Shown here: in pieces, positions 4,109 to 25,915 of the stretch | How the letters are laid out: every line of letters starts with the position of its first letter | Numbering within the stretch: position 1 is the stretch's first letter | NCBI GenBank assembly: GCA_038093975.1 | Contig: JBBPTG010000310.1 | Location: 1-26,269, forward strand | Direction of reading: 5' to 3' | DNA from: Chalciporus piperatus | Taxonomy: Eukaryota > Basidiomycota > Agaricomycetes > Boletales > Boletaceae | DNA length: 26,269 nucleotides | Made by a program: the position numbers and the translations under genes | Notes under the pieces: model-generated | Told to the model about the DNA's origin: nothing | The model's input: only the letters and a program-made list of their open reading frames with translations | Databases searched by the model: none

Positions 4109-4110
4109 AG

Positions 4111-4565
4111 TGTTATGACTAGGTCACAACACAGCGGGGACTTAAGGCAACACTAAGCCTTGCGAAGGAATATGCTGAGTACTAAAGCTTAATTGCGGCG
4201 AAGCAACAAATGGATTAGACTGGGGTCTGTGATAAGTACAGGGCTACTTATATACTATTGAGAAGTGCGCACAGACCAACAGCCGAATAAGGAAATCATA
4301 AAGGAAAAGATAAATAAGGTAAATGGGACGATAGATAAGAAAAGGTACCAGGTACGGATTAGGGTCTAGGCCATGACATCATTGCTGACTCATCTAAGTC
4401 TGGACCTTTGTCACGTGACCTGATTATGTAATAGTTTACGTAATGCTACAGGGACTACCGGAGCAGATTAAGATGAATCCGGCTTGACCCCTAAGTTGTA
4501 GACAAAGTCCAGAGTTCGAATACCGTTGTAGGCAAAAGTTTGAAAAGTTTTTAAATACTATAACA
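4111..4565 (-). repeat. Complete 5' LTR of left gypsy copy, 455 bp
   Basis: On the minus strand it begins TGTTATAG and ends TCATAACA, so the termini are a short inverted repeat with TG...CA ends. It contains a TATA box. The primer-binding site follows after two bases. The right edge lies inside the integrase reading frame of the older copy, after the codons for AYVAK. A five-base target duplication would be TTTAG (4566-4570), to be matched beyond the left edge of the window. Confidence 0.9.
4211..4254 (-). promoter_or_regulatory. LTR core promoter: TATA box and predicted transcription start
   Basis: TATATAAG reads on the minus strand at 4254-4247. About 33 bases further on, at 4221, begins AGTCTAATCCA, the segment complementary to the primer-binding site. 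In self-priming elements that segment is the RNA 5' end, so the start can be predicted from two independent signals. The same arrangement is present in the inverted LTR at 9855-9898 (+). Confidence 0.7.
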
Positions 4566-6839: not shown

Positions 6840-7403
6840 CTAATCACTTTCAGGGTTGTGCCTCTCAAGCCAATCATAGCCAATGATCATATGATGAGTG
6901 CCAAGTACAGAAACAAAAGCGTCCATATGTTCGAAATGTCCATTGTATCCCAAAACAAGCGAAACCTTGTGAGTGACACCACCTATCGCTCCCTCTGAGC
7001 CGTCGGCGTTGTACACTGGAATAGGAAAAGGAAGTTCTTCCAGTGTCAAACCATGTCGCTCACAGAACAATTTATCTATAAACGTTTCGGTTGCGCCGGA
7101 ATCCAATAGAGCGGCAAACTCCATTTTCTTCCATTGCTCCCCTTTGTCGTACATAATAGTAATAGCGAGATCCAGCTCGTTTTTCCGATCCTGATTTCTT
7201 ACATGTATTTTTGATGGGATTTCTTTTTTCGAATAATTTACCTTAAGGGAATTAAGCACAAATTGTTTTACTTCTGTCGCCACGCCACTAGGGGACGCCC
7301 TTTCAGAAGAAGAAAAGTTATATTTAAACGGAACACAAGGAGTAGTACTAATACAACCATTTGGTAAACTATGTCCGAGCCGCCGAGAACCCATTTCTCT
7401 CAT
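6840..7403 (-). CDS. Retropepsin-like aspartic protease domain, right gypsy copy
   Basis: A 187-codon ORF nearly identical to the left copy's protease, with the LLDSGATETFI active site near 7100-7120. The start overlaps the gag stop as ATGA. It ends in TAG after HNPESD, at the codon where the left copy has TGA. The region after the stop is in frame with RT. Either the stop is damage to a conserved Trp codon or it is a leaky stop that sets the Gag-PR to Pol ratio; two different stop codons at the same place fit both ideas. Confidence 0.88.
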   Translation of the reverse strand: MREMGSRRLGHSLPNGCISTTPCVPFKYNFSSSERASPSGVATEVKQFVLNSLKVNYSKKEIPSKIHVRNQDRKNELDLAITIMYDKGEQWKKMEFAALLDSGATETFIDKLFCERHGLTLEELPFPIPVYNADGSEGAIGGVTHKVSLVLGYNGHFEHMDAFVSVLGTHHMIIGYDWLERHNPESD

Positions 7404-8763
7404 TGGCTGTTTCCTTTTAAAGCCTTGGCTGCCTGTGCCTTGGCTTCTGATTCAATGTGGTCGCGCCAGTACGCTTCCGCTTCTTGGTTCGTATATGCTG
7501 CTTGATGTGACATGTAACTTGTGCTGGTAGACGGGCCAGCGGGGTAGGGGGAAGATTGGGGAGGGTAGGGTACAGGGATGGTACCTGCGAAGGGCATCTG
7601 CCGGTTGTCAAACAGCAGGGAAGTTTCAACATATTGTTGCGAATAAGGATCCCACATAACAACCTGTCTCTGGCGCGGCCTGTGGGGCTTTGGGCACGTG
7701 TTTGCAAAATGACCTGGCTGGTCGCAATTGAAACAGTTTCCCCGAATGGGGGATCTTGGCATTTGCTGTGCCGAAAGATCCATCGGGGCTCCACGACCAG
7801 GCTGTGTGCCTGTGGGAGTGACACGGGGAGCCGTATACGAAGCGGGGGGACGTGGGAGCGGGCGCGATGCGATTGGGTACCATGGTGGAAGGTACGGATA
7901 TGAAAAAGAAGGCCTAGGGGCAGGAACGGGTGCCTGACGAACTGGTGCACCACGTTCTACAATGATATGTTCGAAGGTACGACCTATCTTTCGGTAGGTA
8001 TCGATCATGTCATTGTAACTTTGCTCATCAACAGTAGTGTTGATTTGCGCCTGATAATAAACTTTATAGTCTATTGCCTTTTTCAGAAGCTCTTTGGCAT
8101 GAGCATCTGCTATCTCCGATTCCGCTTTTAACAACTCAAACTCCTGGATGAAGATATCCACAGGTTTCCCAGCCTGCTTCAATGCTTCCAATTTCCTGAG
8201 ACTCTCATGAGCGAGAACATCAATCTGGAAATAGTCCTTGAGCATTTTTGAAAACATGATCCAATCTGGCCATGCTTTCAGGCCCATAGGTGCGTGATCC
8301 GGTTCTGGCGCCAACGGATCTTCTTCTGCAGGGGGAGGCGGTGGCAGTAGTTCAAGCGAGACCAGGTCTCGATCATCATTTGCGCATATCCAGCCGCTTT
8401 TCCTTCTAACCGTGAGAGGACGGCGAGACATCGGATCTTGTTGTTTTTCCACGTATGGACAGACTGCCAGGCGTTAACCTGCGCCCACCACAAACGGAAC
8501 TTGGTGCGGTCACCATCCCATTTCCCAGGGTCAGCAACCTTTTTGGACACGGAGTCCGAATTGTCTGAAAGAAGCGCCTTCAGAGCGGCAGTGAGGGCAG
8601 CAATGGGATCAACGGGATCTGCCATCGGAGTTCGGGGGCGAGGAGTAACTGGTGGTATGCGTGGGGAGGGAGTGCGAGAGTTTTTGGATGAGGATGAAAA
8701 GTGACGTGGAGGGGTTCAATAACCTTGATCTATTGGTTCCTGATCATAGGACTCTGCTGACAT
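7400..8763 (-). pseudogene. gag of right gypsy copy, nonsense and frameshift
   Basis: This corresponds to left gag throughout: start MSAE at 8763, capsid region, Pro-rich region and CCHC knuckle (CFNCDQPGHFANTC near 7700-7740). TGA at 8716-8718 is codon 16; the left copy has AGA there. One base is missing near 8353-8357 compared with the left copy, which separates the N-terminal 115-codon ORF (from 8625) from the C-terminal ORF that ends at 7400. The remainder is open and ends in the ATGA overlap with the protease. Confidence 0.9.
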
Positions 8764-9454
8764 ATAACCTTACTGAACCCTATCTTCCAAAGGTTCTCTG
8801 GGGTTGACAGACACGAGGATGAAGGAAATATTTCTTGGAGCGGAGATAATATCTGCGACACTTAAGGGAATCTTTGCAGACCTTCTGAGGAGTTTTCCCA
8901 AGATCTGTTTGGATTTTGCACATGCACTACTCTCGAACTTCTATTTTCGAGCAGCAGCAAAGATCTATTGTAATACAAGATTTTTATTTATTGTTTTCTA
9001 TTTTGTATCTCGGTGCTGCCGGCTTACGTTTCCTACATATGACTCAGCCAAGGGGGCGGCGATGCGCTTTTCCCTTGTCGTCCTTCGCAATTGGGCACGA
9101 CCCCAACTCGGTCTTCGAACAAAATACTATAGTACGGAGGATAACAGGAACAGGGCACTAAAGGCTGGCCCAAAAGAATAGAATAGCCAGATGGTGAATG
9201 CGTGACGTCAACGGGTGATCACGCGAACCCGGATCGTGTCTACAGTCAGAGAGTTGGCGCGTGAGCGGGCCCCAAGACGTCTCGAACGATCAAAAAGCCC
9301 CTAGTGCACTATGGGGAACAGCAACGTTATTCAATTTATGACGGCGGACGGCCGTATATGCAGCAGTGGACGGAGTTGCGGTCTCCTGTGTGTCACGTAC
9401 ACAAACGGTCTTCTTGACCAACTCTTTAGCCCTAGAGTCCAGGCGGTGTTTTCA
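8764..9454 (-). other. 5' leader of right gypsy copy
   Basis: Matches 3403-4097 of the left copy closely. Small ORFs exist on the plus strand (8804-9181) but they are not kept in the left copy, so I treat the stretch as untranslated leader. Confidence 0.72.
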
Positions 9455-9465
9455 AGTCTAATCCA
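9455..9465 (-). promoter_or_regulatory. Primer-binding site, self-priming type (right copy)
   Basis: Identical to the left copy's site (TGGATTAGACT on the minus strand), again two bases from the LTR end at 9468. Its conservation in the older copy supports a functional role. Confidence 0.8.
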
Positions 9466-9467
9466 AG

Positions 9468-9544
9468 TGTTATGACTGGGTCACAACACAGCAGGGACTT
9501 AAGGCAACACTAAGCCTTGCGAAGGAATATGCTGAGTACTAAAG
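9468..9544 (-). repeat. LTR remnant of right gypsy copy (77 bp of the U5 end)
   Basis: It matches 4111-4187 of the complete LTR with about two differences, then stops abruptly where another LTR begins in the opposite orientation. The missing U3 part should lie beyond whatever was inserted here. Confidence 0.88.
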
Positions 9545-9903
9545 TGTTATAGTATTTAAAAACTTTTCAAACTTTTGCCTACAACGGTATTCGAACTCTG
9601 GACTTTGTCTACAACTTAGGGGTCAAGCCGGATTCATCTTTATCCGCTCTGGTAGTCCCTGTAGCATTACATAATATATTACATAATCAGGTCACATGAC
9701 AAAGATCCAGACTTAGATGAGTCAGCAATGATGTCATGGCCTAGACCCTAATCCGTGCCTGGTTCCTTTTCTTATCATCGTCCCATTTACCTTATCTATC
9801 TTTTCCTTTGTGATTTCCTTATTCGGCTGTTGGTCTGTGCACACTTCTCAATAGTATATAAGTAGCCCTGTACTTATCAAAGACCCCAGTCTAATCCATT
9901 TGT
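9545..9903 (+). repeat. Opposite-oriented LTR of the same family, 3'-truncated
   Basis: It starts TGTTATAG and follows the inverted complement of 4565-4206 with scattered differences. It includes the TATA box (9855-9862) and the predicted start (9888). Similarity ends after CCATTTGT, 16 bases past the start; the remaining roughly 95 bases of the LTR are absent and the DNA changes to GGCC-rich module sequence. It is inserted in the U5 remnant of the right copy, after ACTAAAG. The second side of a target duplication is not in the window. Confidence 0.87.
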
Positions 9904-10270
9904 GAGCCCATTCAGCTCGTTAGGCCGTACAGCAAGGCCAGCCGATCACCAATTAGGCCGTGCTCTACTGGCCGGCTAACGATTGGCCGCTGGTGTATGG
10001 TCACCTAGGTTAGGGATCGGCTAGTAATAGAATGTACACGTAGAGTAGGGATCAGCCAATGTACCATTGTGCCCTGGCAGTGGGAATGGCCAACACAAAG
10101 GTTCCATGAGGTAGGACCTGGCTGACTGGTGCTAATCACCCAGTCCTGCCTGCATCAGGGTTCGGCCCATAGAGAATAGGGATAGGCCGATGTGTAAACC
10201 CTCTATGTATAGGGAGTGGCCGATGCAGAAAATGTTTAGGGGTGGGCATTGGCCACTGAATCATGTCTCC
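9904..10270. repeat. Decayed outer part of left terminal repeat
   Basis: GGCC/CCGAT-containing stretches such as TAGGGATAGGCCGATG recur at irregular spacing. They resemble the 33-bp modules further in but are much diverged. There is no counterpart at the right end. No gene is seen. Confidence 0.55.
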
Positions 10271-10905
10271 TACAGCAGGCATGGCCCGATAGATTGAGCG
10301 TCAATGGGTAGGGATGGGCCGATGCAATGATGTCTATCTGTAGGGATGGGCCGATGCAACCCGCCTCAGTAGGTAGGGATTGGCTGATGTATAGTTTGTC
10401 GATGTGTAGGGATGGGTCGATGCAGTCATTTCAATGTATAGGCATGGGCCGATATACCTAGTGTCACTAGGCAGGAATGGACCGATGCAATCAGTGTCAA
10501 TGAGTAGGGATGGGCCGATGCATTGAGCATCAATGCGTAGGAATGGGCCAATATACCTATTGTTACTAGGTAGGAGTAGGCCAATGGGTTGAGCCTCAAT
10601 GCGTAGGAATGGGCTGATATACCTATTGTCACTAGGTAGGCATGGGCCGATATACCTATTGTCACTGGGTAGGCATTGGCTGATGCAATCAGTGTCAATG
10701 TGTAGGGATGGGCCAATGGGTTGAGCCTCCATCCATAGGAATGGGCTGATGCAATCAGTGTCAATGTGTAGGGACGGGCCAATGGGTAGACCCTCAATGC
10801 TTAGGAATGGGCCGATATTTCTATTGTCACTAGTTAGGGGTGGGCCGATGTAAAGTTAGTCCATCGGTAGGGATAAGCCAATGTGATCAGTGTCAATATT
10901 ATATG
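10271..10905. repeat. Left terminal inverted repeat made of 33-bp modules
   Basis: Each module has a near-constant half, read here as GTAGGNATGGGCCGAT, and a variable half of about 17 bases drawn from a few types (GCAATCAGTGTCAAT, ATACCTATTGTCACTAG, GGGTTGAGCCTCAAT and others). From 10271 the order of module types matches the reverse complement of 25283 inwards, apart from one extra module near 10323-10355. Because 33 is divisible by three the array is open in several frames; I do not regard those ORFs as genes. Such subterminal arrays commonly bind the transposase. Confidence 0.85.
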
Positions 10906-10917
10906 GCCTACACTACA

Positions 10918-12225
10918 TTACATCCTCAGCCTCTCCACCATGTCCATCTGACGTAGCAAAGAAATCATATGGAATATGTGTTGCCTACGAGTGTAGGCCA
11001 GAAATTCTAAGCATTCAAACATGATCCAAGATAGGGCCATCAGTGTGGCATCATCATTTCTGGCCTGTTCTTCTTCGGCTGCTCCCTCCGGCGGCTGGTA
11101 TTCTCTGTGCAGCCCTTGGGCCAATTGTCTGTTGGCCCAGTTGATTGCTTGCTCCACTGGATTGCGGCCAACGACGTTATCATCAATGTATTCCATGCCA
11201 TGATCATGAAAACCACTCACAGTGATCGAACGTTCCTGTGAATGGTGTATTTCCTGTCGCCATGTCCTCAGGATTTCTACCTTGCCAGTCATGGGCTGCA
11301 ATCCAATGAATTCTTCTGCCCTCATAGGATGCCACGAGGTACTTACGCAGGTCCAGCTCGTCCAGAAGTCTATTTTCGTTTTCCCTCCGATCATTCGACG
11401 ACATGATAGCTGGGATGTCAGGTGATGTAATATCCTGCTCATCGGCCTCGGCTGGATCACGGCCTGACAAGGTAAGAAAATGTATTTCGACCCACATCCT
11501 CTGGCCCCTGGTTTGATGCGTTGCCCCTGATTTGGCTGACCTCTGTTGGAACCATTCGGCCACCCTTGCTGCGTCGGCACGGACTGTCCTGATATCCTCC
11601 TCCGAGTCATTACCCAAAAGGATTTGAACAGTTCTCTCGGCCGATACGATGTGATTCCACAAAGGCATTCTGGGTACCTCCAAAAACCAGCTCAACGGGA
11701 AGCCATCTCTGGGGCCGTCTGCTGGCAAATCTTGCAGAGCATGTTTTCTGATACGACCGAAGGTCTCTGAAATGGATTCATTGACCTCGGCTGTTCGGGC
11801 GATCAGGCCAACTTGCCAAAGAACATCCGTTGAAGCTCTTATCAGCAGCCGATGAATCCTGTTGCCTCAAAGGTGGCATGCGGAATGTGAACTCTGTTCT
11901 TGGCATCCCTGCGGCCGTGCTATCTTCTGTCTAGGGAATGTCATCTGAATCCCTCCCAATATTTTCCTTGACATACCTGAAGAAGAATCACCACCTTCAC
12001 TGTCAGAGATATTGGCTATGATTGGTTGTGAATCCCTCGGAGAATCTGCAGACATCCTTGTGTCTGCGCCGGCCGATGATGATTCACTTGAAGTTGTCAT
12101 TCTCTCGTCTTCGCTGGATTCCGGCTCTGTGTCATTGTCAAATCCTAAGTCACTCAGGGGTCAGTGTTCCTAAGATGATTTTCGGCTGACAACTTACCTG
12201 CGAATCTTACTTGCTTTGGTGCCAT
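10918..12225 (-). CDS. Uncharacterised 379-aa protein, five exons, intact
   Basis: Exons (minus strand) 12225-12198, 12144-11977, 11926-11893, 11858-11347 and 11315-10918; all phases agree and there is no internal stop. Introns are 53, 50, 34 and 31 nt; the first begins GTAAGT, the second GTATGT and the last GTAAGT. The start is the ATG of MAPKQVRFAG. Residues about 10-70 are acidic and Ser-rich, probably disordered. The central part has the Trp-rich SWFLEVPRMPLW segment, and the C-terminus is helical with a run of hydrophobics around ALSWIMFECLEFLAY. I do not recognise a family. It is the first gene inside the left terminal repeat and is divergent from the next gene, with a 297-bp shared upstream region. 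Confidence 0.72.
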
Positions 12226-12522
12226 GTGTATGTTGCAAAATAGTCAAGGACAGACCAGGGGAGATAGAACCCATCGGCTGAGCCTAATCAGATCAATCAG
12301 ATCAACAGCACCCGAGACTCCAGTTTCCCATGTCACCTGCTCCCTATGAGAATTCAAGTACATTTCCAGCTCCGCTCACCCAACTTGAACAAACACATTA
12401 TGTCACTTTCTATAGCTTTTATTCTCGGCCGTCACTCATCCACAACTGTTTAACACTTGATTTCATCTCGCCTCTCTAACACCGTGCTCTTCACCTCCTC
12501 TCTACTTGCCATCCATCACAAC
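12226..12522. promoter_or_regulatory. Shared upstream region of a divergent gene pair
   Basis: 297 bp separate the start codons of the 379-aa (-) and 656-aa (+) genes. It contains TCGGCC-type hexamers like those in the terminal modules (for example CTCGGCCGTCAC near 12424) and an A+T-rich TTTCTATAGCTTTTATT stretch near 12408, a possible plus-strand TATA region. No precise start can be assigned. Confidence 0.4.
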
Positions 12523-14604
12523 ATGATGTCTGCTCAGAAAGCCAACACCTCTGCTCAAGCTCTCGCTGAGTTCCTCAAGATCACCATTGAGGCCATCATT
12601 CAAAGTGGCGAAGGCCGAGGGAGCCGCTTGTCAAGCTCGGAGTTGGAGGCTCGCACCCAAGACTGGGAGAGGAGATTGGATTTGATGAGGGCGGCATTGG
12701 TGCGTCCAGACTACTCCCTCCTACCCTATCCTATGCTCATCTTTCTCACTTCCCACAGCATCGTTTTCGCCCGATGGCTGAGGCTGCCACCATCATCCCT
12801 CTGATAGTCATCGCCGCAGACATTCGGATCCCCAGCCGCACCAACGTCAACAGTTGGCCGGTATGGGAGTCCATCCTCCATCCTGGTGACTCCATCAAGT
12901 TCCACCATTGGTACCGGCCATCTGAGGCCACTGACTCGACATCGCCCCCCCCTGCCACTGCCGAGTTGCCCACCACCCTGCCTTCTACGGCTCCTCGCAT
13001 CACCTCGCCGCCGCCAGCTCGTCAAGGAAAGGGTAAACAGAGGGCTGTTGCAGTTGAGTCAGATGAGGCCGAGGAGCCAGAAGATGACCCAATAGAGCGG
13101 CCGGTCCCCTCAAAGTCCTCGAGGCCTCACCCGAAACACACCAATGTGTCAGCACCATCGGGCCCATTGCTGCCCTCCCTCCCTTCGATCGTTGTGGAGA
13201 CTCAACACCCACCACCGCAAGCACCCAAGCCGGCTCGTCTCCCACTCCCAACTCCAAAGACACCGTCTCGCCCTCGCCACCACCTGCCTATGATGCAAAC
13301 CAAGGCTCAACAAGAATGGAACAAGGTCGAACGTGCCAAAAACGCTCAACCCGGCCTGTCCTGTCCCTCCCCTGCCTTGGCTGCTGCCGCCTCAGGCAGC
13401 GGCTCCCTTCTACCCCCTCCGCCAGAACACTCTCCATGTGACCGGTGTGTCACCATGGGTTGGGAATACATCCCGCATCCCCCTGGAGCGAGCCAGAATG
13501 CCTGCATTCCCTGTTTTCAGGGAAAGCAGAAGTGTTCCCTCACAACGGCCCATCCAAGATGTGCGGCTTCGGCCCCTTGGACGGATTTGCCTGCCACCCC
13601 AGGCCCCTCCACCAGGCCGAAGAGCACTCGCCAAACAAGGGTGGCAACAGGCAAGGGGAAAGGCAAGCAGAGAGCGACGGCTCCTGAGGACGACGGCTCT
13701 GACGACCCATTGGCCATTGAGCAGACCAAGCGGCTGGAAGGCAAAGGGCAGGCAGGCCCGAGCACAATCAAGAAGAGAACAAGGGCTCAGTCGGCATCAG
13801 AGGAGCCGAAGGCAAAGAGGGTGAAGCCAAGTGAGTTCATAGGTCATTCAGGTCTCTATTTGACATTAACATGGTCTACCAGCTCCAGTGGTCGAGGTCC
13901 CGACCTTCCGGCAGGTCATCTCGAGGGTCATCAGAGAGCAAGAACACCTTCCAGGTGTCTTGGCGGTCGCTCGTCCGTCGGGCGAGTCGACCGACTATGC
14001 CGAATGGAGGGATTACGCTCTGAGGCTCGAAGGTGCCATCCATCCTTCGGCCGCTCAGTTCGACCAAATGGAGGCTAGATTCTCCGAGCTGGAGTCTGGG
14101 CTCTCCGTGGTATCCCAGCAGGTCAGTGGGATGTCGAGGGTATTGGAAACCGTCAGGCAAGTACAAGCCGTGGATCATCGTCCATCACCGGCTGCCTCGT
14201 TTGTCTGGCATCCTCGCCCATCTCCCTCTGCCTCTCTCCCCCTTCGCTCTCCCTTGGCTTCGGCTCCCCCACGATCTGCCTTGTCCCGCTCGCCCTCAGT
14301 GGCTGCATCCCTCCTGGCGCCCGAGATCATCCCTGCGGCCAGCACAGTCACCTTGGAGGCCGACCCGACTGTGGACTCAAGGCCAGTCATTGCATCGAGT
14401 GACCAAGGGACAGTCGCATCGCCGGCCGACACCCAGACTGAGTCTGACATGGGTACAGCCATTCAGGCTTTGTTTCAATACCCCTCCCAGCCGTCCAGTC
14501 CGGCCGCTGAGTCAGATGACAGTCCATTGGGCAAAGATGCTGATACGACTGCCAAGATTCCCTCAGTGGATGATCTATCAGAGACGATGGACACTGGGGA
14601 GTGA
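12523..14604 (+). CDS. 656-aa Zn2Cys6-like protein, three exons, intact frame
   Basis: Exons 12523-12699, 12759-13830 and 13883-14604, joined in phase by introns of 59 and 52 nt (GTGCGT...ACAG, GTGAGT...CCAG). Residues about 130-280 and 345-420 are Pro/Ser/Lys-rich and contain GKGKQRA repeats, so a nuclear, disordered protein is likely. A cysteine cluster lies at residues 286-318: CDRC, 18 residues, CIPC, six residues, C. This spacing fits a fungal Zn2Cys6 cluster whose third Cys (position 296, in GWEY) is Tyr. The segment before the C-terminal Ser/Pro-rich tail, around RFSELESGLSVVSQQVSGM, looks like a coiled coil. It could be a DNA-binding regulator of the element. The function is an inference. 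Confidence 0.72.
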
Positions 14605-14845
14605 GGGCAGGGCTGATGCATATCATCATTTATCTTGTACTTTATATACATCGCAATAGAGTGTTTTCTGAGCAGTCTATTCAAAACGCCTACTTAAGCA
14701 GTAAAGTCCTAAAGAAAGAAACCTAGATTAGGGTCTCTTTTTGGTAGGTGTTACTACACCATCGTCCTTGTGAGCTGGAGTCTTCCTTGGTCTACCTGAC
14801 CTGCGAGCCGATGGCTCAGGGACTTTATGGAATGTTTCATCGGCT

Positions 14846-15258
14846 GCACCCTGGATCAAATTGTCATTTGTCAGTCAAGCTCAATATATACATAAGTGCA
14901 CTGACCTTGTCAGCCTTGGTCTCGGCCAGCTGCCTTGAATCCTTCTCTTTGCGAACTCTCTTGGTGAGCCTGTCATCAGCCGACGAATCGGCGGCTGAAC
15001 CATCCTCTTCAGTCAGAGGACATTTATTCTTCCTACCCTTTGTTGAAGTTTTCTCCTTCCTGTCATCGGTGGCACCCTGGGTCACATTGTCATTTGTCAG
15101 TCAAGCTCAATATACACATATGTCTACTTACCTTGTCAGCCTTGGTTTCGGCCGGCTGCCTTGAATCCTTCTCTTTGCGAACTCTCTTGGTGATCCTGTC
15201 ATTGGTCGACGGATCAGGGACTGAACCATCCTCTTCAGTCAGAGGACGTTTGTTCTCT
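14846..15258 (-). repeat. Tandem duplication of an exon plus its intron
   Basis: Positions 14846-15036 and 15070-15258 are about 85% alike with a period of 224 bp. Each unit holds an exon end coding for PLTEEDGS...TKRVRKEKDSRQ...KADK, the GT donor, a 55-nt intron and the acceptor. The duplicated unit keeps phase 0, so both copies are usable in the same protein. Confidence 0.88.
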
Positions 15259-15289
15259 CTAAGGCCCTTTGAACTTTTCTCCTGGACCC

Positions 15290-15405
15290 TTGGCTTAGGA
15301 GGCTGGGGCTTAGTCTTAGACTTAGGCTCCAATGGCTTAGGCTGTAGCTTAGGCTCCAATGGCTTAGGCTGTAGCTTCGGCTGTGGCTTCGGCTTCGGCT
15401 GGGAC
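15290..15405 (-). repeat. In-frame minisatellite coding for Pro-Lys-Gln repeats
   Basis: A 27-base unit coding LQPKPLEPK occurs twice in succession, flanked by shorter PKPQPK units. It lies in exon 7 of the 763-codon gene, upstream of the duplicated segment. It probably encodes a flexible basic linker. Confidence 0.75.
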
Positions 15406-17430
15406 TCTGAGTTAGACTTTGTGAGCAAAGATAAAGTTGTTATGTATTACCTTGTCAGTCCCCTGAGACGTTTTCTGACTGTTCCTTGTAAACCTTGGAC
15501 GGTTCACCTTGTTTGGTTCTGACATCATGCCAGCTGGAAGGGCCTGGGGTCTTTCGGGATGCAGTACGATGTTTATCGAAAGCTGGCAAATCTGTCAGCC
15601 GATTAGCATGCTCTCATCAATGCCAATGCTGCATGGACCCACCGTAGTCCCCCATTTCATTGTCTTCATCCTCCTCGGCTGATGACACATCAGACATGAT
15701 GGGTACCTCTTGTGCTTTCCCTTTCCCCTTTCTCTTGGGAGTCTGCACAGAGACAAATCTATTGTCAGTCAGTTCTGGCAAGGGAGCTCTCTGACGACTC
15801 TGGAGCCGTTTGCTCTTGTCTAGCCGCTTGCTCTTGTCTAGCCATTTGCTCTGGTCATGTGTTACCTGGAATCCCCCTTTCACCCCTCCCACCTGACTCC
15901 AAGCAAATATCGGCACCTTCCTGGCCTGCTGTTTGCTCTGCCAGAAACTAAGCAAGCTTTCGACTTGCTTTTGCCTCATCTTCGATGGATCAATCATCAC
16001 AAACCCTTTCGGCAGATAGTCGGCATGGATGAAGGCGGCTTGTCGTTTAGCCACCTCGCCAAATGGAACCTTGGCCTTGTGGCTACCCGACTCTAGTCCT
16101 GTCGACCTGCTCAGCCGAGATCTATTCAACCTCGGCCGACTCACTGTAATGAGCAGTCAAGAAGGCTCACATCACATCCTTCATCTGGTCAAGGTTCATC
16201 AGCTTGATATCAGGAATGATTGGAGGCTCATTCCCTGTCCAATCAGGCTTGAGCAACTTTATCATCGCCTCAACCCTATTCTTCTTCTTCTTCCTAGTAA
16301 TGACCGGCAAGCCTTCCAAAGACCCTTCATCTTCGCTCCCTTCTTCGGCTGGCCTGTCGTTCACCCCAAAAGCTGTGTTGGCCCATTTGTTCCATTTAGG
16401 GCGAATGCTGTCCCAATGTTCAAACAGCGGGCCATTGTCCAACTCGTCGTTGTAATCGAAGCTGAATTGTATGGTTAGCTTGAGATCGACAGCGGCCGAT
16501 GAAGCTAACTGATTGAGAAATAAGGACATCGTCGTCTTTGTCCTTCCATGCACTCATGACCATCATCCGCGCTCCACAGTTCTTCCACATATTCTTAGCA
16601 AACGCAAGGACCATGTTTGGAGCTTTCTTCGACGCATTGCTGATTACATAGCCATAGAGCTCAATACCAGCCGATCAATCAGACAGTCAGAGGACCTACT
16701 CAGCTTGGACTTCGGCCAACGGCTTGTCTGCATTCCATTCTTCGACCTCAGCCTCTAGTTGCTCTCTGTTGTCCTTGGAAAGTGATTCCAGGAATTTAGT
16801 GATGCCAGCCTGCCAATGCTTGATCATCCCCTGGGACCCCCGCTTCTCCTGAAACTTGTATTCGATGATTGCCATCACCTCTTCTTTGTTCCTTTGGGAT
16901 ACAATTTTGCGGGCCGTCCAGCGCTGACTATACTTTGGCTTGTCCTCGGCTCGTTTGCGAGACTTGCTGTACAACCATAATGTGTATTGCTAGTGTATTA
17001 TTGCAATCAGCATCTAAGGGCTTAAAACACTGGATTCACTCACATTTTTGCGGTATTTGAAAGCCTCAAGTCCAAGCCCCTTGACAGACTCGAGCTCAGC
17101 TAACCTGCCCCACATATTCTTCATGATCGACGCCTTCTTGGCCTTCTCTGAATTTTTCCAAGGCGTGACGAACTCCGCCATAATAGCCAACTCTTCCTCT
17201 GAAAATTCTGTCAGCCGCTTCTTCAGCTGGTTTGGCCCATCTTCTGCTTGCTCAACATTCTCCTCATTAGGGTTCTCTTCCTCGAATTCATCCTCTGCCA
17301 ACGAATCTATGTTACCGTCACCTGGGTGGTCTATATCACCCGGTTCCTCAGAGGCATGATTGCTGGAGGGAAGGTCCTGTTTATCATAGGAACGTTCAGC
17401 TGTCGTTTGGGTGGCAGACTTCATGACCAT

Positions 17431-17864
17431 CTTTCTGTTGCTTCAGGTGCAAGAGAAACAAATCCTGGTGTCAGGGTTAGGTTTTTTTGGTTGCTGGTCA
17501 TTGGCTCCTTCGGTCTGATAAGTCCCAATGATGTCGGCTCTGGGTCAATTTATCAGACATCTAAATTAGGCCCGAGGATGTCGGGTGTGAAGCTGTCAAT
17601 CAGACGCTTGTCACCTTTCAGCCATGTCTGCATCTTACATCGTCCTGATGACATCGGATAAGAAGCTGTCAAGATATCGGCTAATGCATCCAATGTCAAG
17701 CGGCTGTTGTTCGGAGGAAGGATCTGATGGCTCTGACGTACAAATGCTTCCGCGAGTGATCAAAGGCTCCGGCCCGTTCATCTTGTCACCTATGCCCCTG
17801 GGTGGCCTGAAATATGCTAACCTGCCAATGAGGCAAACATTATCACCAAGTATCCGATTGTACA
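17431..17864. promoter_or_regulatory. Shared upstream region between the AT-hook-like gene and the KDZ gene
   Basis: 434 bp separate the two divergent start codons. The stretch contains several direct repeats of ATCGGCT/GTCGGCT and of TGATGACATCGG / CCAATGATGTCGG type. A small ORF (17624-17864 part) has no supporting features. A bidirectional promoter is likely by position only. Confidence 0.4.
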
Positions 17865-20800
17865 ATGGTCAAGCCCAAGATCGAGAAGGCCACACCATGG
17901 ACCCCAGTGCAAGAGGTCAAGTTTCTCAAGAAGGGATCAAAGATCAAGATGGTCAAGCTCACCCCGCCAAGCCACAAGAGCAAAAAACACAAGGCTGCTA
18001 TCCCTCAATCATCACCTCAGATGCCGAGACTGGAAACGCCACTGGATCGTGGCCTCACACCAAGCACTGCTGATCGGATGTATGACGCAGCTGATGGAGA
18101 GTATGTTCTGCCTTCTTTGAAACTACCTAAACCCAAGGTATGCTCGACTGTGTGGGTGCCCAGATTTAATGACTGAGGGTATTTGAATAAGACCCAAACA
18201 ATTATTTGAGGGAGTCCCTGGACATGAAAGATGAATACCTCGCTGCTTGGCTGGATATGGAGGCGCCTTCTGAGAGAATTTGCAAGATCTGTCAGGGAGA
18301 CGGAGTGTATAAGTGCCAGGACTGTTTTATGCAATCGGTTTTCTGCACAGGTTGCTGCAGAAAGCAACACGAACAACGCCCTCTTCATAGGGTGTTACAA
18401 TAGACCAGAGATTGTTTTGAGGAATCCACACTCCATCGGGTATGTCGTTTGAAACACTGACAAATCGGTCAATGACAGACTATTTGCACAGACAGGGTTG
18501 GAACTCCATCTGGGACACTTAGGAAGTCCCTGTCCCCATACTGCCCCTCTACCTCCAGTCACCTTGGAGGACGAGGCTTGGAAGGATGATGATGTTGCCC
18601 ATCGGCCGGCTCATTTACAGCCTCTGGCCGAGCCAGGCTTTCTCCTGGTCATAGATATATCTGGGGTACACTATGTGAACATGAGATTTTGCAACTGTCC
18701 AGAGGCCGATGCAGCTCATAAACAGCTCTTTCTGGCTCAGCTTTTACCTTCCACCATCAAAGAGCCGAGCACTGTATTTACCTTTTGGCTGCTCGACGAC
18801 TTCATCCGAGACAATCTGGAATGTGGCACCTCTGCTTCAAACTACTTTAGCAAGATTCGGCGGATAACATCCAATGCATTTCCTCATTTTGCCTGTGGGT
18901 GGCTTCATTGCTCAGCCAAAGCCCAGCCAAAGCCGAGCTAATGGTGATAACAGAACCGATATCGAGAGCTCATCCATGCCGCTCGACTATGGAGGCTGTT
19001 AAAGCTGCTCAAGTGGAATGGATATGGGCATACCAAGGGGTCTCCTGGATTGGGTGCTCTGGCTTTGTTCTGTCCGGCATGCCCTCAGCCAGGGATCAAC
19101 ATGGACATTAATTGTGTTGGGGGAGTGGCTCCGTGAGTGTATTAGCAACCTTGACCGATGCACTAGCATCTCATGATCCTAAAGGTGGATGATCACCCGA
19201 ACCATCGTTATGGACGGCAATTTCAAGGCGGAGCATTTGCCTGACAAGAGGCCTGATGACCAAGTATGGCTGATGCCTGGGACAGGGTTTATGGTAGAAA
19301 GCCAGAGATACAAGGAGTACCTTGAAGTCACGAATCATCCCATCGAGGCATTGACATTTTGGCTTTCAAAGACATTGCTGACAGCGTCGGGCAGAAGTCG
19401 AACTGTAACAACCATCGAGCAGTCAATCAGGCCAATGCCAACCGACAAAAGTTAGAGGCCACAGGAATCGGGGGGTGCGCATGTGCCAGACATGGATGCT
19501 TCATTCCCCATGCAGTGGTGGACTTCCAGAAGGGTGAGAGATAACATGTTCGGCCGCCGGCCGAGAAACAGATGCATTGACCACAATGACAGGCAGGTCA
19601 ATATGGATTATGCATTGGCACATGCCTTGGAATACAACATGGCTGGCATTCAAAGGGTGATCCTCTTCTATAACATCAATTGCCAATACATGAAGCGGCT
19701 GAGGCTGCGGCTCAAGGGCAACAAATATGTCAAAATACCATCGGCCGTAGAGTTGGTGCCAGGGTTAGGCATATGGCATGTGCATGGTCATCAGGCTGAA
19801 TGTTTCCAGAGATACGCACTCAACTTTATCTGAGGGGCAGGGCGGGTGGATGGGGAGATAATTGAAACCTTATGGGCAAACTTGAACATTGTGTCCCCAT
19901 CCACAAGGGGAATGAGCAGCCCTCACAGATGAGAATTGCTGGACTTCCAAATGGCCGACTCCAACTTTGTCAAAATAATAAGGATGAGTGGGTGACCTGC
20001 ATTCTGTAATGACAGATCGCCTAACACCTCGGATTTGTAGCTCAGAGTCTCAAGAGAAAACACAAGCAAGCAGTCAAAGGGCTTGTCGAAGCCGAGAAAG
20101 CTTTCCAAGAGTTGGATGATGGCATTCCAGAGGCGGAAAGAAATGAGTGGCAAGCTTTAGAAGATCAGGCTCACAGAAAGAGAGTGAAGGACCTGACGGC
20201 CATGGACGTCTACGAGGTGCATTTGAAAAAAGGTTTGTGGCCAGTCCTACTGAGCCAAAAAGAGTGTATCGAATTGATTGGAATCCCAGCACCATCGGCC
20301 AAGGCAATCGAGCTTCAGCTGCTACAGAGTAGTCAAGGTGGCAGAAATCAGGCAGTGTCATTGATCACACTTGGTATGCAGCTACAGGAGATGAAACTTG
20401 GTTGGGCATCAGAGAGCCGCAGGCTTCCGATTCGGCCGACTGAACAACAGCAATTGGTAATCGCCCGAAAGAAGGAAAGGTTGGCTGGGCTTATCCATGC
20501 TTTTATTACAGAGACAGCCGCATTCTGGGGGGATGTGGGAGAGTCAAGCGATCTGGAAAACTATCTGGAGCAAGAAGCGTCCAATGTGGCCGATGACGAA
20601 CTCTGGGAGGATGAAGATCAGAGAGATAGAGCATTGGCTGACGTTCCAGATGTTCCTTTGCCATCGACTCTCGGCTGGAAGTTTTGCACTGCGCATGGGT
20701 TGCAGGATGTGGCAGACAAGGAGAAACAGTTGCGGATAGGCCAAGCAAACGATGCCCTCCATGAAATTCATCTGGGTCTGGCAGACAAGGCAGTCCTCTT

Positions 20801-21382
20801 TCGGACCGAGGTCAGGCATGCTGGGAGTTACACCATGACAACACGGGCATGGTCAAGGGTGACCATGGTCGAGGAAACAGTGAAAAAGAATGTGGCCATT
20901 TATCGAGCAGCCAGGAAAGCATTACAAGACTTGGACGCTAGCCAGCAAGACTTGGAGAAGTATCGGCCAATCAGCAAGAAAGACTTGCAGGTGTCAACGG
21001 CCGTGAGCAATCTGAATGCTCGTGGACATCGAGATAATACCCTTGCTTGGTTCTGGACCATGGATATACCGAGGGACGTGGTAATGAATAACTGGATGTC
21101 CGAATGTGAGAGTGCTCCTCTGCTTCTCGGCTCGGCTGAATCTCTATGCTAGTCTATCGGGTGCATTGGCTCAGAGCAAAGGCCCAAAGAGATAGATGGA
21201 AAGAAGAAACTGAGCTTTTGGTTCAAGAAAAGGTGTGGACCACGAACTTCTTTGCTCATAAGGCAGGTGATTGGAGCGAAAAAGGGAACAATGCGAAAGA
21301 ACAGGGAAGGGTGGGAGCCGCGGCATATGCAGACAGACAGAAAAGGATGTATGCCAGGCTCAGAGATCATTGTCAGGATTAA
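17865..21382 (+). pseudogene. KDZ-superfamily transposase with CxC2 cysteine cluster, inactivated
   Basis: Inferred exons 17865-18100, 18178-18439, 18492-about 18890, 18954-19132, 19185-19540, 19593-19987, 20041-21105 and 21153-21382. The CxC2 cluster (CKICQ...CQDC...CTGCC...H...PLHR) is at 18270-18390, followed by LELHLGHLGSPCP and, near 19070, CPACPQPGIN. Presumed DDE residues: Asp in MDGNFK (19213), Asn instead of Asp in FYNINCQY (19672), Glu in GRVDGE (19855). Later landmarks are CARHGCF, HVHGHQAECF and the C-terminal YRVHWLRAKAQRDRW. Lesions: TAA 18188, TAG 18401 (Trp in relatives), a one-base phase error at the exon 3/4 junction, a frameshift near 19340-19358, splice donor GT read as AT at 19541, and TGA at 19831 and 19930. 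The enzyme would excise and insert the element. Confidence 0.9.
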
Positions 21383-21383
21383 T

Positions 21384-22695
21384 TCAAGTACGGTGGACAA
21401 GATTTTCTATGTCATCTACATTGACCCAATCTACATCGAAGAGGTTCATGGCCTGTTGAACGTTCTCCCTCATGTAGTATGCCAAGCAAACCCAACTTCC
21501 TTGAACCACAGGAACTCCATGCCGGATGATCCGCCCAGAAAATGCTACCACGGTGCCTGGAGGGTAATGAAGGGTAATGCCGAGTGTAGGCAGCTCCATT
21601 GTTAAGCCAGGATCATAGTCACCAAAGGATGCCAGCAGATCTAACCCCTGTGACATAGATCCTGAGTCTCGATGCAAAGGAGTCGCTCAATTGACCATGA
21701 CTGACATGGCATTGAAGACCGAGCCCCACTGCCTCATGATGGCAGTCATCTCCGTGTGGCCGCTCGTTAAGGCCCATGTGGCCAACCTTCCCTGAGCCAC
21801 CCTTGCAGATTGGTAAGCCCTGGGATGCATAATACTGTAGGCAGCCGAGAGGATCGCGTTTGGGACCAACATGTCTTCTAACCAAGCCGCAAGGCTCGGG
21901 TCTGCTAGGTTGACAGACGGCGCTGGACTTGAGTTACTGGCCTGCAAGAGATCAGGTCGTTGAATTGAATAAATCAAGGTGAATTGAACATACATTATGA
22001 GCTTGGGGAAACCAGCCAGGTGAGATGTTCAATGACCCCTGGAATGCAGCTTCCTGGGAAAAGAGGGCATTGGCAGTCCGCCAACCATGACACGATGACA
22101 GCGGGGTTGTGATGGTGGATTGAAGAAGCGGTTGGATTGCAGGCAGAGTGTTATGCACCCATGACTAGACAGCCGAGTGAGGCCTGAAAAGACACATTCA
22201 GCAGACTAGGCCTACCTGAAATTTGGAGGTGAGCGGCGATGGGAGATACCAAAGTAGGATGCGGCCAGCTTGATCTGTGACAATGCAAGGCGCATCTATG
22301 AAAGTGGTCAGAAGGGAGGGAAGCCGCTCGGAAATCCTTTGTTCGTGATCTGGATTTATGCCAGACTTGATATATCCCAGAACCGATGCAAGTTGTTCTG
22401 CTTGAATATCCAGGCGGACTGCGGCCGAACATCAGCTGCCTGAATGGCCTTTCATGGAAAATAGCTTGCCTGGACGGCTGAAGGCTGAAACCATCGCAAC
22501 CACCATGCGTTCGGCCTCAATGACAGCATTAACAGGAATCTGAACATCTGGCAAGACAGGTTCGGTGGTGTGATTGCGGAAGCGCAGCACCTCCTCCCGA
22601 AAACGTGCCTGGACATAGGTTGCCAACAGATCGTTGAGATAGAGGGCGAAGTTGGTATCAGTTAATTCCTCAGAGGTAACATGAGGTGGGTCCAT
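21384..22695 (-). pseudogene. TET/JBP-family 2-oxoglutarate/Fe(II) dioxygenase, four exons, one stop
   Basis: Exons (minus strand) 22695-22470, 22418-22216, 22164-21994 and 21941-21384; all phases agree, giving 385 sense or stop codons before the terminal stop. Introns are 51, 51 and 52 nt; the first uses a GC donor (CCAG|GCAAGC). Fungal TET/JBP landmarks are LSPGWF-like NISPGWFPQAH (exon 3), LVPNAILSAAYSIMHP and WGSVFNAMSVMVN (exon 4), iron ligands H290-x-D292 (LHRDSGS) and H341 (IIRHGV), and R358 for 2-oxoglutarate. TGA at codon 285 (21689-21687), five residues before the HxD, removes the catalytic half; relatives have Arg there (VNR.T..HRD), so CGA to TGA is likely. Such enzymes oxidise 5-methylcytosine in DNA. 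Its stop lies one base from the KDZ stop. Confidence 0.87.
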
Positions 22696-23686
22696 AGTAA
22701 ATCAAGGGAGTCGTGGTGTAACCCTCGACAGATAGGTAGAAACGGGAGCGTCTGCGGGTCCTTCGGGGCCGTCGGGTCAGTTCCTCGGGTCCAATGGGCT
22801 ATCAATATCCGGCCGACACTTTGGGAATACATCCATGACAGGCATGGGAAACCCATGTGCTTGAACTCTGGACCAAAGATAGCCTGGCCGAAAGTCAGCC
22901 TTCTCCATCAAACATCTGATGCTCACTAAAGTTGAAACATACACTTTGTTGGTGTACTTCGGCTGCAGATTACAGGCAGCCATTGGAGAGGCAGGACAAT
23001 GGCCTCCTGCAGCAATGGTCTCCCTGAGGGAGAAAGTGGTGAGTATGGATTTGCACACTTCCTGCAGGATTGTTAACAGCCAAACAATAGGCTGTAGTGA
23101 ATCGGTTGATGGCATACAAATCAATCGCTCACAATGATCTGCCACACATCCCTCTGTTGGATCGGGTCATCTTGCTGATTATTGTGAGCAATCTAGAGGA
23201 TGGCCAGCTCCGCCAGGAAATTTCAATGACACCTGGGAGCCAATTGCATATAATGCAACAAACATCGCTGAGGTGCGGCCGAGCATTGTCGGCCATGGAT
23301 TTGCAGCACAAGTGGTGGTTAGAAGGCAGCAATGGCCTGCCTGGTGACTATCGTCGGCAGGAGTTCGGAGACTTCATCGGGCCGGCAGAGGCTTTTTTCG
23401 GTGTGAGTTACCAGAAGTATCTTGGGTTAGCACTATGGGTACTCAAAATCTGGAATAGGGACTGCTCGCCCTTGCTCAGAATGCTGATAATAGCTCTGGG
23501 CTTCAGGGCGACATCGACGAGATGCAACAGAGCTTGCATGGGCAATTCGTGGAGGCAGCCATGACTTTACGAGAAATGAATAGGAGCTTGGTGCTGACAT
23601 GGAACAGGGCGAGAGGGTTGATAATGCTCACCCAATGGATTCGTGAGCAGGAGGGTAGAACCCATGTAGAAGGGGTCTGGGGATAG
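22681..23686 (+). CDS. Uncharacterised protein of up to 264 aa, four exons, open frame
   Basis: Exons 22681-22893, 22976-23038, 23091-23402 and 23480-23686 join in phase (introns 82, 52 and 77 nt; donors GTCAGC, GTGAGT and GTGAGT). The first ATG lies inside the start of the divergent TET gene (15-bp antisense overlap), so the true start may be different. Exon 3 has a hydrophobic helical stretch (LLDRVILLIIVSNL) and a KWWLEGSNGLPGDYRRQEFG segment. Exon 4 is a predicted coiled coil (GDIDEMQQSLHGQFVEAAMT...LREMNRSL). I do not recognise a family. It is convergent with the 184-aa gene. Confidence 0.55.
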
Positions 23687-23878
23687 GTAGAATATTTTAA
23701 ATATGCCAGCCAAAGGACATGTACTCCAGCCGAAACTCGTATCACAGTGAGCAAATGCAGCTGGCCCTGATAAACACTCAACATTGAGGAAATCTAATAT
23801 TACAGTACATTGTAGTCGAAATGCACGATGAGAATGAAACATAAGCATGAGCATGTATCTAAGAAGCATAACAAAGTA

Positions 23879-24520
23879 TTCTGCAAAGATTGTGAGCCGA
23901 TGAAGAGGAGAAGTAACTAGCTGACTCACAATGGTTCCTCAGCCGCTTTCTCAAGCTGGTGGGCAGGGTCTGTGTAGGGGTGGACATACTACATGGCAGA
24001 CCTTCAGCAAGGCACTGATGACAAGGCTGAGCCAATGAGCCTCCATTGCACAAGAGCTCGTCGGCTGCCTGACACTGTTCACATAGCTCTCTACTTTGAA
24101 CCTCCATTCCCAATACAGCCTCAAGGCCCCTAGGCAGCAGCCATAGGTTCGATGGTCCAGCGAGAGGGAGATCAACAGGTGACCGAAGAATCGGCCGAGG
24201 GATTGATGGGCCCATGGGAGCGGGGGGGGCCGGTGGGTTGGCAGCAGAGGCCAACCCTGAGACGCGTGACGCAACTATGTCCAGTGAGTCGCAGATGGTG
24301 TCCAAGACAGGTGGGGAAAATGGGGAGACACTGGGAGACATAATTCCTGCAGTCAGCTAGAGGATGATCAGTCGAATGATAGACGATCTGAAGAACAGCT
24401 TTGTACCGCTGCCTGCAAAACCATGTGTGCCCAGGTGCGACGATGGGCGAGATCATCGATCTCCCTGAGCTGTGGGCAAGCAAGATATTCGAGAGCATTT
24501 CGGCTGCTAGAGGGGTCCAT
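23879..24520 (-). CDS. Zn2Cys6-like protein of about 184 aa, three exons
   Basis: Exons (minus strand) 24520-24385, 24346-23930 and a last exon that supplies only the end of the stop codon (T|AA across 23930 and 23880-23879). If the last intron is retained, the frame runs to 23859. Introns are 38 and 49 nt. An earlier ATG at 24568 is in frame. The protein has a Pro-rich middle and a cluster C-x2-C-x7-C-x8-C-x2-C-x6-C (from CEQC to PCS), close to the fungal Zn2Cys6 pattern, followed by a basic SLRKRLRNH end. It resembles the cluster of the 656-aa protein, so the element may encode two related DNA-binding proteins. Moderate confidence in the structure, low in the function. Confidence 0.6.
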
Positions 24521-24682
24521 GGCGACGTTAGATATCGATTCAGATGATTGGAAGGCGATCTGAATCATCAGTCAACTGTCAGAATTGGCCAATGGGGCTG
24601 GCTGGGCGAGGGTGAGTCTGGATCTCGGGAATCAATTAGGGTCTTTGATTGATTGATCAGAGCTTCTTAGTGATTCCAGAGT

Positions 24683-25283
24683 ATGCCTAGTGGCTTGCTT
24701 TGGATCAGCCCATGCCTACTCAAGGACAAGGTTTGCATTAACCTGTTCCTACATATTTACAATCAATGCATCGGCCCATCCCTACACATTGACACTGATT
24801 GCATCGGCCCATCCCTACCTAGTGACAATAGGTATATCGGCCCATTCCTACGCATTGAGGCTCAACCCATTGGCCCATTCCTACACATTGACACTGATTG
24901 CATTGGCCAATGCCTACCCAGTGACAATAGGTATATCGGCCCATGCCTACCTAGTGACAATAGGTATATCAGCCCATTCCTACGCATTGAGGCTCAACCC
25001 ATTGGCCTACTCCTACCTAGTGACAATAGGTATATTGGCCCATTCCTACGCATTGAGGCTCAATGCATCGGCCTATCCCTACACATTGACACTGATTGCA
25101 TCAGCCCATTCCTGCCTAGTGACACTAGGTATATCGGCCCATGCCTACACATTGAAATGACTGCATCGGCCCATCCCTACACATCGACAAACTATACATC
25201 GGCCAATCCCTACCTACTGAGGCGGGTTGCATCGGCCCATCCCTACCCATTGACGCTCAATCTATTGGGCCATGCCTGCTGTA
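24683..25283. repeat. Right terminal inverted repeat made of 33-bp modules
   Basis: Modules of the form ATCGGCCCATNCCTAC plus a 17-base variable half (ACATTGACACTGATTGC, CTAGTGACAATAGGTAT, GCATTGAGGCTCAACCC and others) run to 25283, where similarity with the left end (10271) stops. Read inwards, the order of variants equals that of the left end. The part from 24683 to about 24760 is diverged. Long ORFs with an 11-residue repeat peptide are a consequence of the 33-base period. Confidence 0.85.
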
Positions 25284-25689
25284 TGTCGGAAATTTCGAAA
25301 ATTTAATTCAATGGATTGCAAGTGCTTGAAATGCCGCAATAGGAAGTCACCATTACATCAGCATTGCAATACTAAAGGTCTGATTGCGAACCGGCTGACT
25401 ATGATATTGCAATCAGGATGGCAATGGGCATTGAAACCGCGCCGGTCCGAATGTGATCACATGAGGAGCCACAGCACAGATATTAAGTTAGCATTGAAAT
25501 GACATTTAAATCAGGATGGCATTATTATTTAAATTAGGATTGCAATACTATTGTAATAGGGGTTCAAGGAAGGTATAAGGATCAAAATGTTATCGCACCG
25601 GTTGTCGCACCGGCCAACCGGCAACTTAACACCGGACATCTCAAGCGAGTTGAAATGCAACCAACCAATCATAATTAGCTTGAAATACT
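25284..25689. other. A+T-rich flank without recognised gene
   Basis: Repeated words such as GGATTGCAAT, ATCAGGATGGCA and TGAAATG recur at irregular spacing, and CGCACCGGTTGTCGCACCGG forms a short direct repeat near 25595. I see no coding region or element ends here. Confidence 0.5.
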
Positions 25690-25795
25690 TGTTGCAACCG
25701 GGATTCGAACTGGAGACTAGGAACATTAACAAGATTATAATATTAAGTAGCATGACTTACCTTGAGCATAGTTTACCATTAGGCTACGCGCCCTT
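25690..25795 (-). repeat. tRNA-derived (SINE-like) sequence with A- and B-box
   Basis: The minus strand from 25795 reads GGGCGCGTAGCCTAATGGTA, like the 5' half of a tRNA with an A-box, and about 65 bases later AGTTCGAATCCCGG, like a B-box/T-loop. A true tRNA is unlikely: the 3' side does not pair with GGGCGCG and the T-stem is poor. The A-box to B-box spacing suits a pol III promoter, so a SINE head or decayed tRNA is the best reading. Confidence 0.5.
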
Positions 25796-25915
25796 GTATA
25801 GTATTATAACACACTCAAATATATCGAGCATGTCTACACTTAGAGAAAATCAGTGAAGGCAAACACGAAGTACTGATCAGATGCAATCTGAATACATTGA
25901 TACTATCAATACCAT

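Follow-up and report, generated by a model that had tools for sequence, protein, structure and literature searches.

In this study, we analysed the whole of a 26,269 bp contig (C310, hereafter the window) from the draft genome of the mushroom Chalciporus piperatus, which comprises 35.5 Mb in 484 contigs. The window contains a block of seven intron-containing genes (g1 to g7) enclosed by inverted arrays of 33-bp repeats, and this block is very probably one damaged copy of a family of cut-and-paste transposons of the KDZ superfamily, Kyakuja-like and equipped with a TET gene, which moves all seven genes as one cargo. The family has two distinct types of end (A and B), inverted 33-bp arrays and recurrent copies; 7-bp target duplications flank two of its short relatives, and most of its genes are under purifying selection. 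A preliminary description of this DNA had regarded the block as a defined genetic unit, and this is borne out by many genomic copies that share gene order, orientation and ends.

Results

The two ends of the family are unlike each other. Type A begins with GAGCCC and type B (CACATAGC..., met at C356, C46 and C295) with CACATAG, and a common sequence is found only inward of about base 28. Genome-wide we counted 58 A ends and 55 B ends, whereas the reversed control patterns gave 0, which excludes a chance origin of the ends. Within the arrays, two arms of 453 nt each (10332-10784 and 24802-25254) are 93% complementary and have a period of 33 bp. In the window, position 9904 is the left breakpoint of homology to five other loci (L004-L007 and L032; for L004 the breakpoint is at 9903, a matter of one matching base), and the flanks of these loci are unrelated. 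On the right side the element stops at 25279 and a different repeat begins at 25280, with approximately 370 bp of the right end, including the B-type terminus, missing. The block had been placed at 10271-25283 and described as bounded by matching arrays. While the block is real and both arrays belong to the element, position 10271 lies inside the left end array, the true ends are found outside the arrays and are not identical, and the right end is truncated; neither array is an unrelated satellite, as had been considered possible.

Ten convergent pairs of neighbouring ends, each on one contig, were compared, six of the A/B kind and four of the same type. Perfect 7-bp target-site duplications (TSDs) are present at two of the six A/B pairs, namely CAGTTGA at C193 (3.9 kb) and TCTCGTC at C217 (3.5 kb); both are short non-autonomous copies, and the eighth base differs on both sides of their duplications. 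None of the four same-type pairs (C120, C202, C375 and C185) has a 7-bp duplication. The C217 element (L072, C217:9004-12528) is a long inverted repeat with arms of about 1.3 kb that are 87% complementary and include both arrays, and its core of only about 215 bp corresponds to window positions 17351-17565, that is the start of g3 and the gap between g3 and g4. As this element has both ends, both arrays and a TSD around so small a core, no more than the ends and arrays appears to be needed in cis. For the C193 relative (C193:2563-6466), which has an A and a B end, only the ends were read. The features of the window are listed in Table 1; many of the match rows given there for the companion genes are fragments of one gene.

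Table 1. Positions of the element and its parts in the window
Feature	Position	Strand	Remarks
KDZ/TET element	9904..25279	.	about 15.4 kb left; left end intact, right end truncated
Terminal sequence type A (GAGCCCATTCAGCTCGTTAGG...)	9904..9931	+	58 genomic places with at most 3 mismatches; 0 in control
Left subterminal array	9932..10905	+	33-bp units around GGCCGATG; outer part degenerate
g1, protein without assigned family	10918..12363	-	model 388 aa, 6 exons; 56 match rows in genome
g2, Zn2Cys6-like protein	12523..14604	+	model 654 aa; 68 match rows
g3, basic protein with AT-hook-like C-terminus	14728..17430	-	model 721 aa in window; 26 match rows
g4, KDZ transposase with CxC2 cluster	17865..21382	+	broken in window copy
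g5, TET/JBP dioxygenase	21384..22695	-	model 350 aa in copy C137; 1 in-frame TGA in window copy
g6, protein without assigned family	22919..23686	+	model 219 aa; 26 match rows
g7, small Zn2Cys6-like protein	23879..24568	-	model about 196 aa; 54 match rows
Right subterminal array	24690..25279	-	outer ~370 bp and B-type terminus missing
Dispersed word TCGGCY / RGCCGA	10920..24600	both	74 sites (TCGGC 86 sites)
Candidate 7-bp target duplication CATTTGT in gypsy long terminal repeat (LTR)	9897..9903	.	element-free LTR copies read through this point

A search for host loci with the same gene order had been proposed, and we compared the window with 11 stretches fetched from the genome (12 copies; detection threshold 35 bits). 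In all 12 copies the genes found above this threshold are collinear and in the same orientation, with g1 of C10 added from the genome-wide g1 matches and with one exception: close to its far end, C295 has a weak g7-like match of 24 residues. The full set of seven genes is present in the window, C137, C10 and C356, although the contig edge cuts into g1 of C356; the remaining eight copies are incomplete owing to contig ends, fetch limits, deletions or insertions. It had been considered that the companions might never be found beside KDZ genes; they do adjoin them. Relative to a family set of 24 hits chosen from 75 KDZ rows, 10 of the 24 g3 places (26 rows) have a family KDZ gene within 9 kb, divergent in all 10, and 14 have none that near (at C178 it is 9.7 kb away). 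For TET, 15 of the 25 rows over the cut-off (36 rows in total) have a family KDZ gene within 8 kb and 10 have none; 13 of these 15 are convergent and two, at C36 and C388, are co-directional with the nearest KDZ gene and perhaps belong to another subfamily. A g1-like stretch was also seen inside an open frame of 3024 residues (C377:8519-9073), and short matches to g7 residues ~38-64 occur near element ends (e.g. C193:3335, C202:31816 and C302:24241), which perhaps represent a g7-derived part of the end region.

Spliced models were obtained for all seven genes and give the order -,+,-,+,-,+,-. Pfam places KDZ and CxC2 in g4 and Tet_JBP in g5, and the seven multi-exon genes, their alternating order and the KDZ and TET/JBP pairing described earlier are hence confirmed by our own models; g1, g2, g3, g6 and g7 have no Pfam family over the cut-off. 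Six-cysteine clusters are present in g2 and g7: the window copy of g2 keeps five of the six cysteines and five other aligned copies keep six, and all six are found in each of the seven g7 copies with a complete stretch, with Zn_clus below the cut-off (E 0.11) for a g7 protein put together from two copies. The C-terminal tail of g3, as read off the gene model, carries what we take to be an AT-hook motif. The Zn2Cys6-like and AT-hook-like companions that had been proposed are therefore recovered, though the g7 model is uncertain. Ratios of non-synonymous to synonymous substitution (dN/dS), which are pooled pairwise estimates over related copies with terminal stops included in the stop counts, are 0.32 for g1 (two copies), 0.35 for g2, 0.47 for g3, 0.45 for g4, 0.22 for g5, 0.48 for g6 and 0.81 for g7 in the modelled frames. 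The other same-strand frames give 0.67-1.78, except for g6 +1 (0.31) and g7 +1 (0.47), and both other g7 frames lie below the modelled one. This supports coding constraint on g1-g5, for g1 on two copies only.

The transposase frame of the window copy contains two in-frame TGA codons and an Asp-to-Asn change in YDIN, a residue that is kept in 11 other aligned copies; DGNF, YDIN and DGE are presumably the catalytic motifs. In other genomic copies the KDZ stretch is free of stops. The KDZ transposase domain (PF18758) scores 116.1 bits in the model of copy C137, which is over the Pfam cut-off, and 39.6 bits in the KDZ pieces of the window (34.6 bits with the stops read as X), while CxC2 (PF18803) precedes the transposase core with 81.9 bits. 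The nearest solved structures to TET are 8jkk and 7vpn (CcTET), with E ~7e-28, and its best relative, from Boletus edulis, is only 38% identical. The iron-binding HxD, the distal His, the Asp337-equivalent and a Ser at the Gly331 position are present in 16 of 16 aligned copies; a stop falls between H and D in C194 and just upstream in the window copy. According to Kojima (2025; PMC12730594), the residues at Asp337 and Gly331 mark AG-type TETs, with possible activity on 5-methylcytosine and N6-methyladenine. We call this TET AG-type from its closeness to CcTET and from these key residues.

Of the 182 substitutions counted as private to the window copy, the largest class is C-to-T at CpG (72/830, against 13/1713 at CpA, 14/1593 at CpT and 37/1658 at CpC). 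In each of the 11 copies, C-to-T changes are most frequent at CpG, at rates from 0.67% to 9.3%. This pattern fits methylation followed by deamination, and the fast CpG decay of the copies suggests that the element is a methylation target. The element (10920-24600) is CpG-poor, with an observed/expected ratio of 0.56 versus 0.94 in the neighbouring gypsy copies; however, we rejected the latter as a decay control, as the gypsy copies may have diverged while active and the comparison is unfair.

Relative to the ends, the core of seven genes is found either way round. Ends were assigned within 4.5 kb after weak and duplicate rows had been dropped (44 of 56 g1 rows and 31 of 54 g7 rows used). An end was assigned at 25 of the 44 g1 places (15 A and 10 B) and at 21 of the 31 g7 places (7 A and 14 B), which amounts to 29 assignments in the order A-g1..g7-B, as in the window, versus 17 in the opposite order, with C10 counted at both sides. 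In a g5 tree of 16 copies, 11 of them labelled, the orientation label changes four times (shuffled mean 3.87), and the near-identical copies C295/C356 and C17/C427 (2-4 differences in ~700-790 bp) are opposite in orientation. Two stretches of C295 (21814-22964 and 23550-24156) match the middle and the array of the short C217 element; a full element and a short one may thus be joined in C295 as a chimera.

The word TCGGCY, often as the palindrome CGGCCG, forms the core of the array unit (GGCCGATG) and is also dispersed through the interior. There, TCGGC is found 86 times versus 20.4 expected from first-order shuffles, and 74 of the 86 sites read TCGGCY. Modelled exons contain 65 of the 86; the density is 6.13/kb in exons versus 6.83/kb outside, and the strands hold 48 and 38 sites. 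In four element copies the TCGGCY density is 5.4-7.1/kb, compared with 0-2.4/kb in 14 other stretches. Two of these 14 hold 230-284 bp of element, C295 (2.39/kb) and C178 (0.62/kb), so that the highest control density sits in a stretch with 284 bp of element; the remaining 12, not screened as a set for element pieces, have 0-1.3/kb. Exons contain 45 TCGGCY sites versus 20.8 +/- 3.9 in 1000 synonymous-codon shuffles within genes (maximum 34), which is more than protein content and codon usage can account for. Among hexamers, CGGCCG ranks first in three of three element copies (z 24-35), whereas the top hexamers of 12 other stretches peak at z 4.5-16.2; at C356 14.4-20 kb, GCCGGC has z 16.2 and CGGCCG z 8.7. 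With a maximal-order Markov test, little of the excess remains (CGGCCG 42 vs 27.5; TCGGCCGA 8 vs 10.5), because the shorter words within TCGGCY are themselves enriched, and enrichment was judged on the first-order, synonymous-codon and other-sequence controls. Protection of the CpG inside the word was looked for and none was visible, with 68/651 decayed versus 433/3576 of other CpGs (p 0.24). In the non-autonomous C217 element, 20 of 23 word sites are within 0.7 kb of one end or the other.

Outside the element, window positions 1-9541 hold two gypsy-like retrotransposon copies on the minus strand that are ~90% alike, followed by an LTR piece (9542-9903) at whose edge the KDZ element directly begins; this piece repeats 4206-4568 in inverted orientation. 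On contig C62, a B end directly adjoins that same base of the LTR, and CATTTGT is repeated there; since C62 is another contig than the window, joining this end and the left flank of the window into one CATTTGT target duplication is suggestive only. On the other side, the truncated element is bordered by a repeat (25280-25811, ~530 bp) with a tRNA-like stretch read by eye, which is also found at C31:15556-16085, there apart from the element. The stretch C135:7802-10327 (L003 and L036) shares the truncated right end and its flank with the window (~98%) and then continues with part of g1; this suggests a derivative with an internal deletion, either an allele or a duplicate.

Discussion

The results presented here are in best agreement with a single mobile element that carries seven genes, although several observations weigh against this view. 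Four of the six A/B pairs (C10, C51, C137 and C295) lack a matching target duplication, and two of them, C10 and C295, hold several of the genes. The C137 pair joins the ends of two nested elements; the flank of its A end equals window 17802-17860, and this end therefore belongs to an element nested in another. The two flanks of the window copy itself are not comparable for a target duplication, and none of the end pairs examined encloses a full-length copy flanked by a TSD. In addition, g7 and, to a lesser degree, g6 are without clear coding constraint, and as other frames have lower dN/dS values the models of g6 and above all g7 are uncertain. Protein-database searches, which covered g1, g6 and TET, gave no match at E <= 0.001 for g1 (4309 candidates) or g6 (640 candidates). 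The TET query gave 13 matches in the same database, which shows that fungal TETs are present in it; the g1 and g6 companions may be absent from the database or may have been missed through introns or length. An AlphaFold model of the main exon of g1 has a mean predicted local distance difference test (pLDDT) value of 34 and offers no usable fold. The opposite view would be that host genes have come to lie by chance between two unrelated satellites. Only the five genes without a Pfam family over the cut-off speak for such a cluster, and the collinear copies, the common ends and the TSDs on the relatives refute it, leaving it with next to no probability.

Given a transposon, the two orientations of its core need an explanation. 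We think it reasonably probable that they are real rearrangements, which arose by recombination between the inverted arrays of one or of different elements. Both orientations are seen at the g1 and at the g7 side, the labels on the tree change about as often as shuffled ones, and near-identical copies are found in opposite orientations. However, the tree rests on less than 800 bp and has several weak nodes, and misassembly of near-identical arrays of 1-2 kb could mimic the same picture. An assembly artefact is indeed a possibility of some weight, if on balance not the probable one: this is a draft assembly, several copies break at contig ends, and the target sites of the long pairs do not match, whereas mixing is seen on both sides and on many contigs, and the distances between end and gene are ~0.8-2.8 kb in 45 of 46 assignments (4.0 kb in one). 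The minority-orientation copies C10 and C295 are without matching target duplications, which makes a flip within one element less likely than chimeric contigs or an exchange between elements. As the long pairs tested lack matching duplications, misassembly and exchange between elements are both live alternatives to be kept beside recombination between the inverted arrays.

The dispersed word lends itself to two readings, neither of which we hold with much confidence. It may tentatively be seen as a tag by which the element marks itself, read by its Zn2Cys6-like proteins g2 and g7, which would direct TET or activators to element DNA. Zn2Cys6 proteins recognise CGG, the word is the core of the array unit, and its excess over shuffled sequence, in exons as well as in the whole interior, together with the rank of CGGCCG among the hexamers, would be consistent with such a tag. 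However, binding of the word by g2 and g7 is putative, the CpGs of the word decay like any others, the maximal-order Markov test leaves little excess, and the sites of the C217 element are concentrated near its ends. A by-product of codon preference, amino-acid content or lineage mutational bias, with no selected tag, is a somewhat doubtful explanation too. It draws on the same Markov test, on the wealth of GC words at C356 14.4-20 kb, on the finding that protein and codon usage alone yield nearly half of the exon sites, and on the fact that two of the six frame/strand classes account for 28 of the 45 exon sites (19 in antisense 2 and 9 in sense 0). On the other hand, the excess survives synonymous shuffling, is equally high outside exons and is present on both strands; it is absent from the 14 other stretches, and strong CpG decay should deplete a word that contains CpG.

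For the transposon itself, we propose that the KDZ/CxC2 transposase would assemble on the arrays, helped by the Zn2Cys6-like and AT-hook-like proteins, of which the former would read CGG words. TET would oxidise 5-methylcytosine on the element and thereby delay silencing, and copies that lose the race against silencing would decay, fastest by C-to-T changes at CpG, as the window copy may have done. Both the TET activity of the element and its transposition are predictions from sequence. In its most elaborate form this would be a self-addressed transposon, with a word every ~150-200 bp in seven genes that two Zn2Cys6-like proteins read to tell self from host, with TET brought in to erase methylation on self only, and with the word in the arrays serving transposition while the arrays let the core flip; taken as a whole, we consider this picture unlikely. 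Nevertheless, a family in which TET travels with two putative CGG-binding proteins and a single CGG word is dense throughout makes the aiming of TET directly testable, and the element touches on the question of how a transposon-borne fungal TET is aimed at the transposon rather than at the whole genome. Likewise, the exchange of cores between unlike ends offers a natural system in which recombination between long inverted arrays can be assayed.

Fungal TET genes often sit in transposons, and transposons with both KDZ and TET genes are already known. TET+ Kyakuja (KDZ) transposons are described from Agaricomycetes (Kojima 2025; PMC12730594). The element described here resembles Kyakuja in its KDZ transposase, AG-type TET, 7-bp target duplications, one CA terminus and the lack of an inverted repeat at the very ends; it differs in that the two Laccaria families have CA..TG termini, while here CA (B end) is paired with TC (the A end reads ..GGGCTC). 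The parts of that account covered here make no mention of subterminal arrays, Zn2Cys6-like or AT-hook-like proteins, two extra genes, a dispersed word or core flips, and the words 'tandem repeat', 'zinc' and 'subterminal' do not occur in them (PMC12730594). As the 3' TG terminus is unmatched, we file the element as KDZ and Kyakuja-like. Within the part of the literature covered, from which Iyer 2014 and the supplements are left out, the gene set, the dispersed word and the core flips look new, though the companions may have been noted already in Iyer 2014. Zisupton was considered and rejected, as its target duplications are 8 bp long and those found here are 7 bp, with a differing eighth base on both sides. 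The Cryptococcus elements KDZ1-3 likewise encode a KDZ transposase with a CxC cluster and are mobile, at ~9-11 kb, but they have terminal inverted repeats of 139-241 bp, CxC1 instead of CxC2 and TSDs of 4-8 bp, and the passages that describe them mention no TET (PMC12810828). Intact Pleurotus KDZ copies are reported to be preceded by CxC2, as here (PMC7641404).

A self-tag of the kind discussed above could be likened to sequence-specific anti-silencing, of which it would be a fungal counterpart. In maize Spm/En, TnpA binds subterminal arrays and relieves methylation, but the transposase is of the CACTA type, no TET is known from it and the genes are few. The VANDAL elements of Arabidopsis have a MULE-type transposase that is unrelated to KDZ. 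These elements are reported to have a short word that is dense in one family and rare elsewhere, tandem arrays and element-encoded counter-silencing (PMC5735166, PMC10398659). The word reported here is similarly dense in the four element copies and rare in the 14 other stretches. However, the VANDAL word is mainly non-coding (PMC5735166, PMC10398659), whereas the word in our element is nearly as dense in exons as outside them, and the element carries a TET on board. The resemblance to VANC anti-silencing would thus be functional at best.

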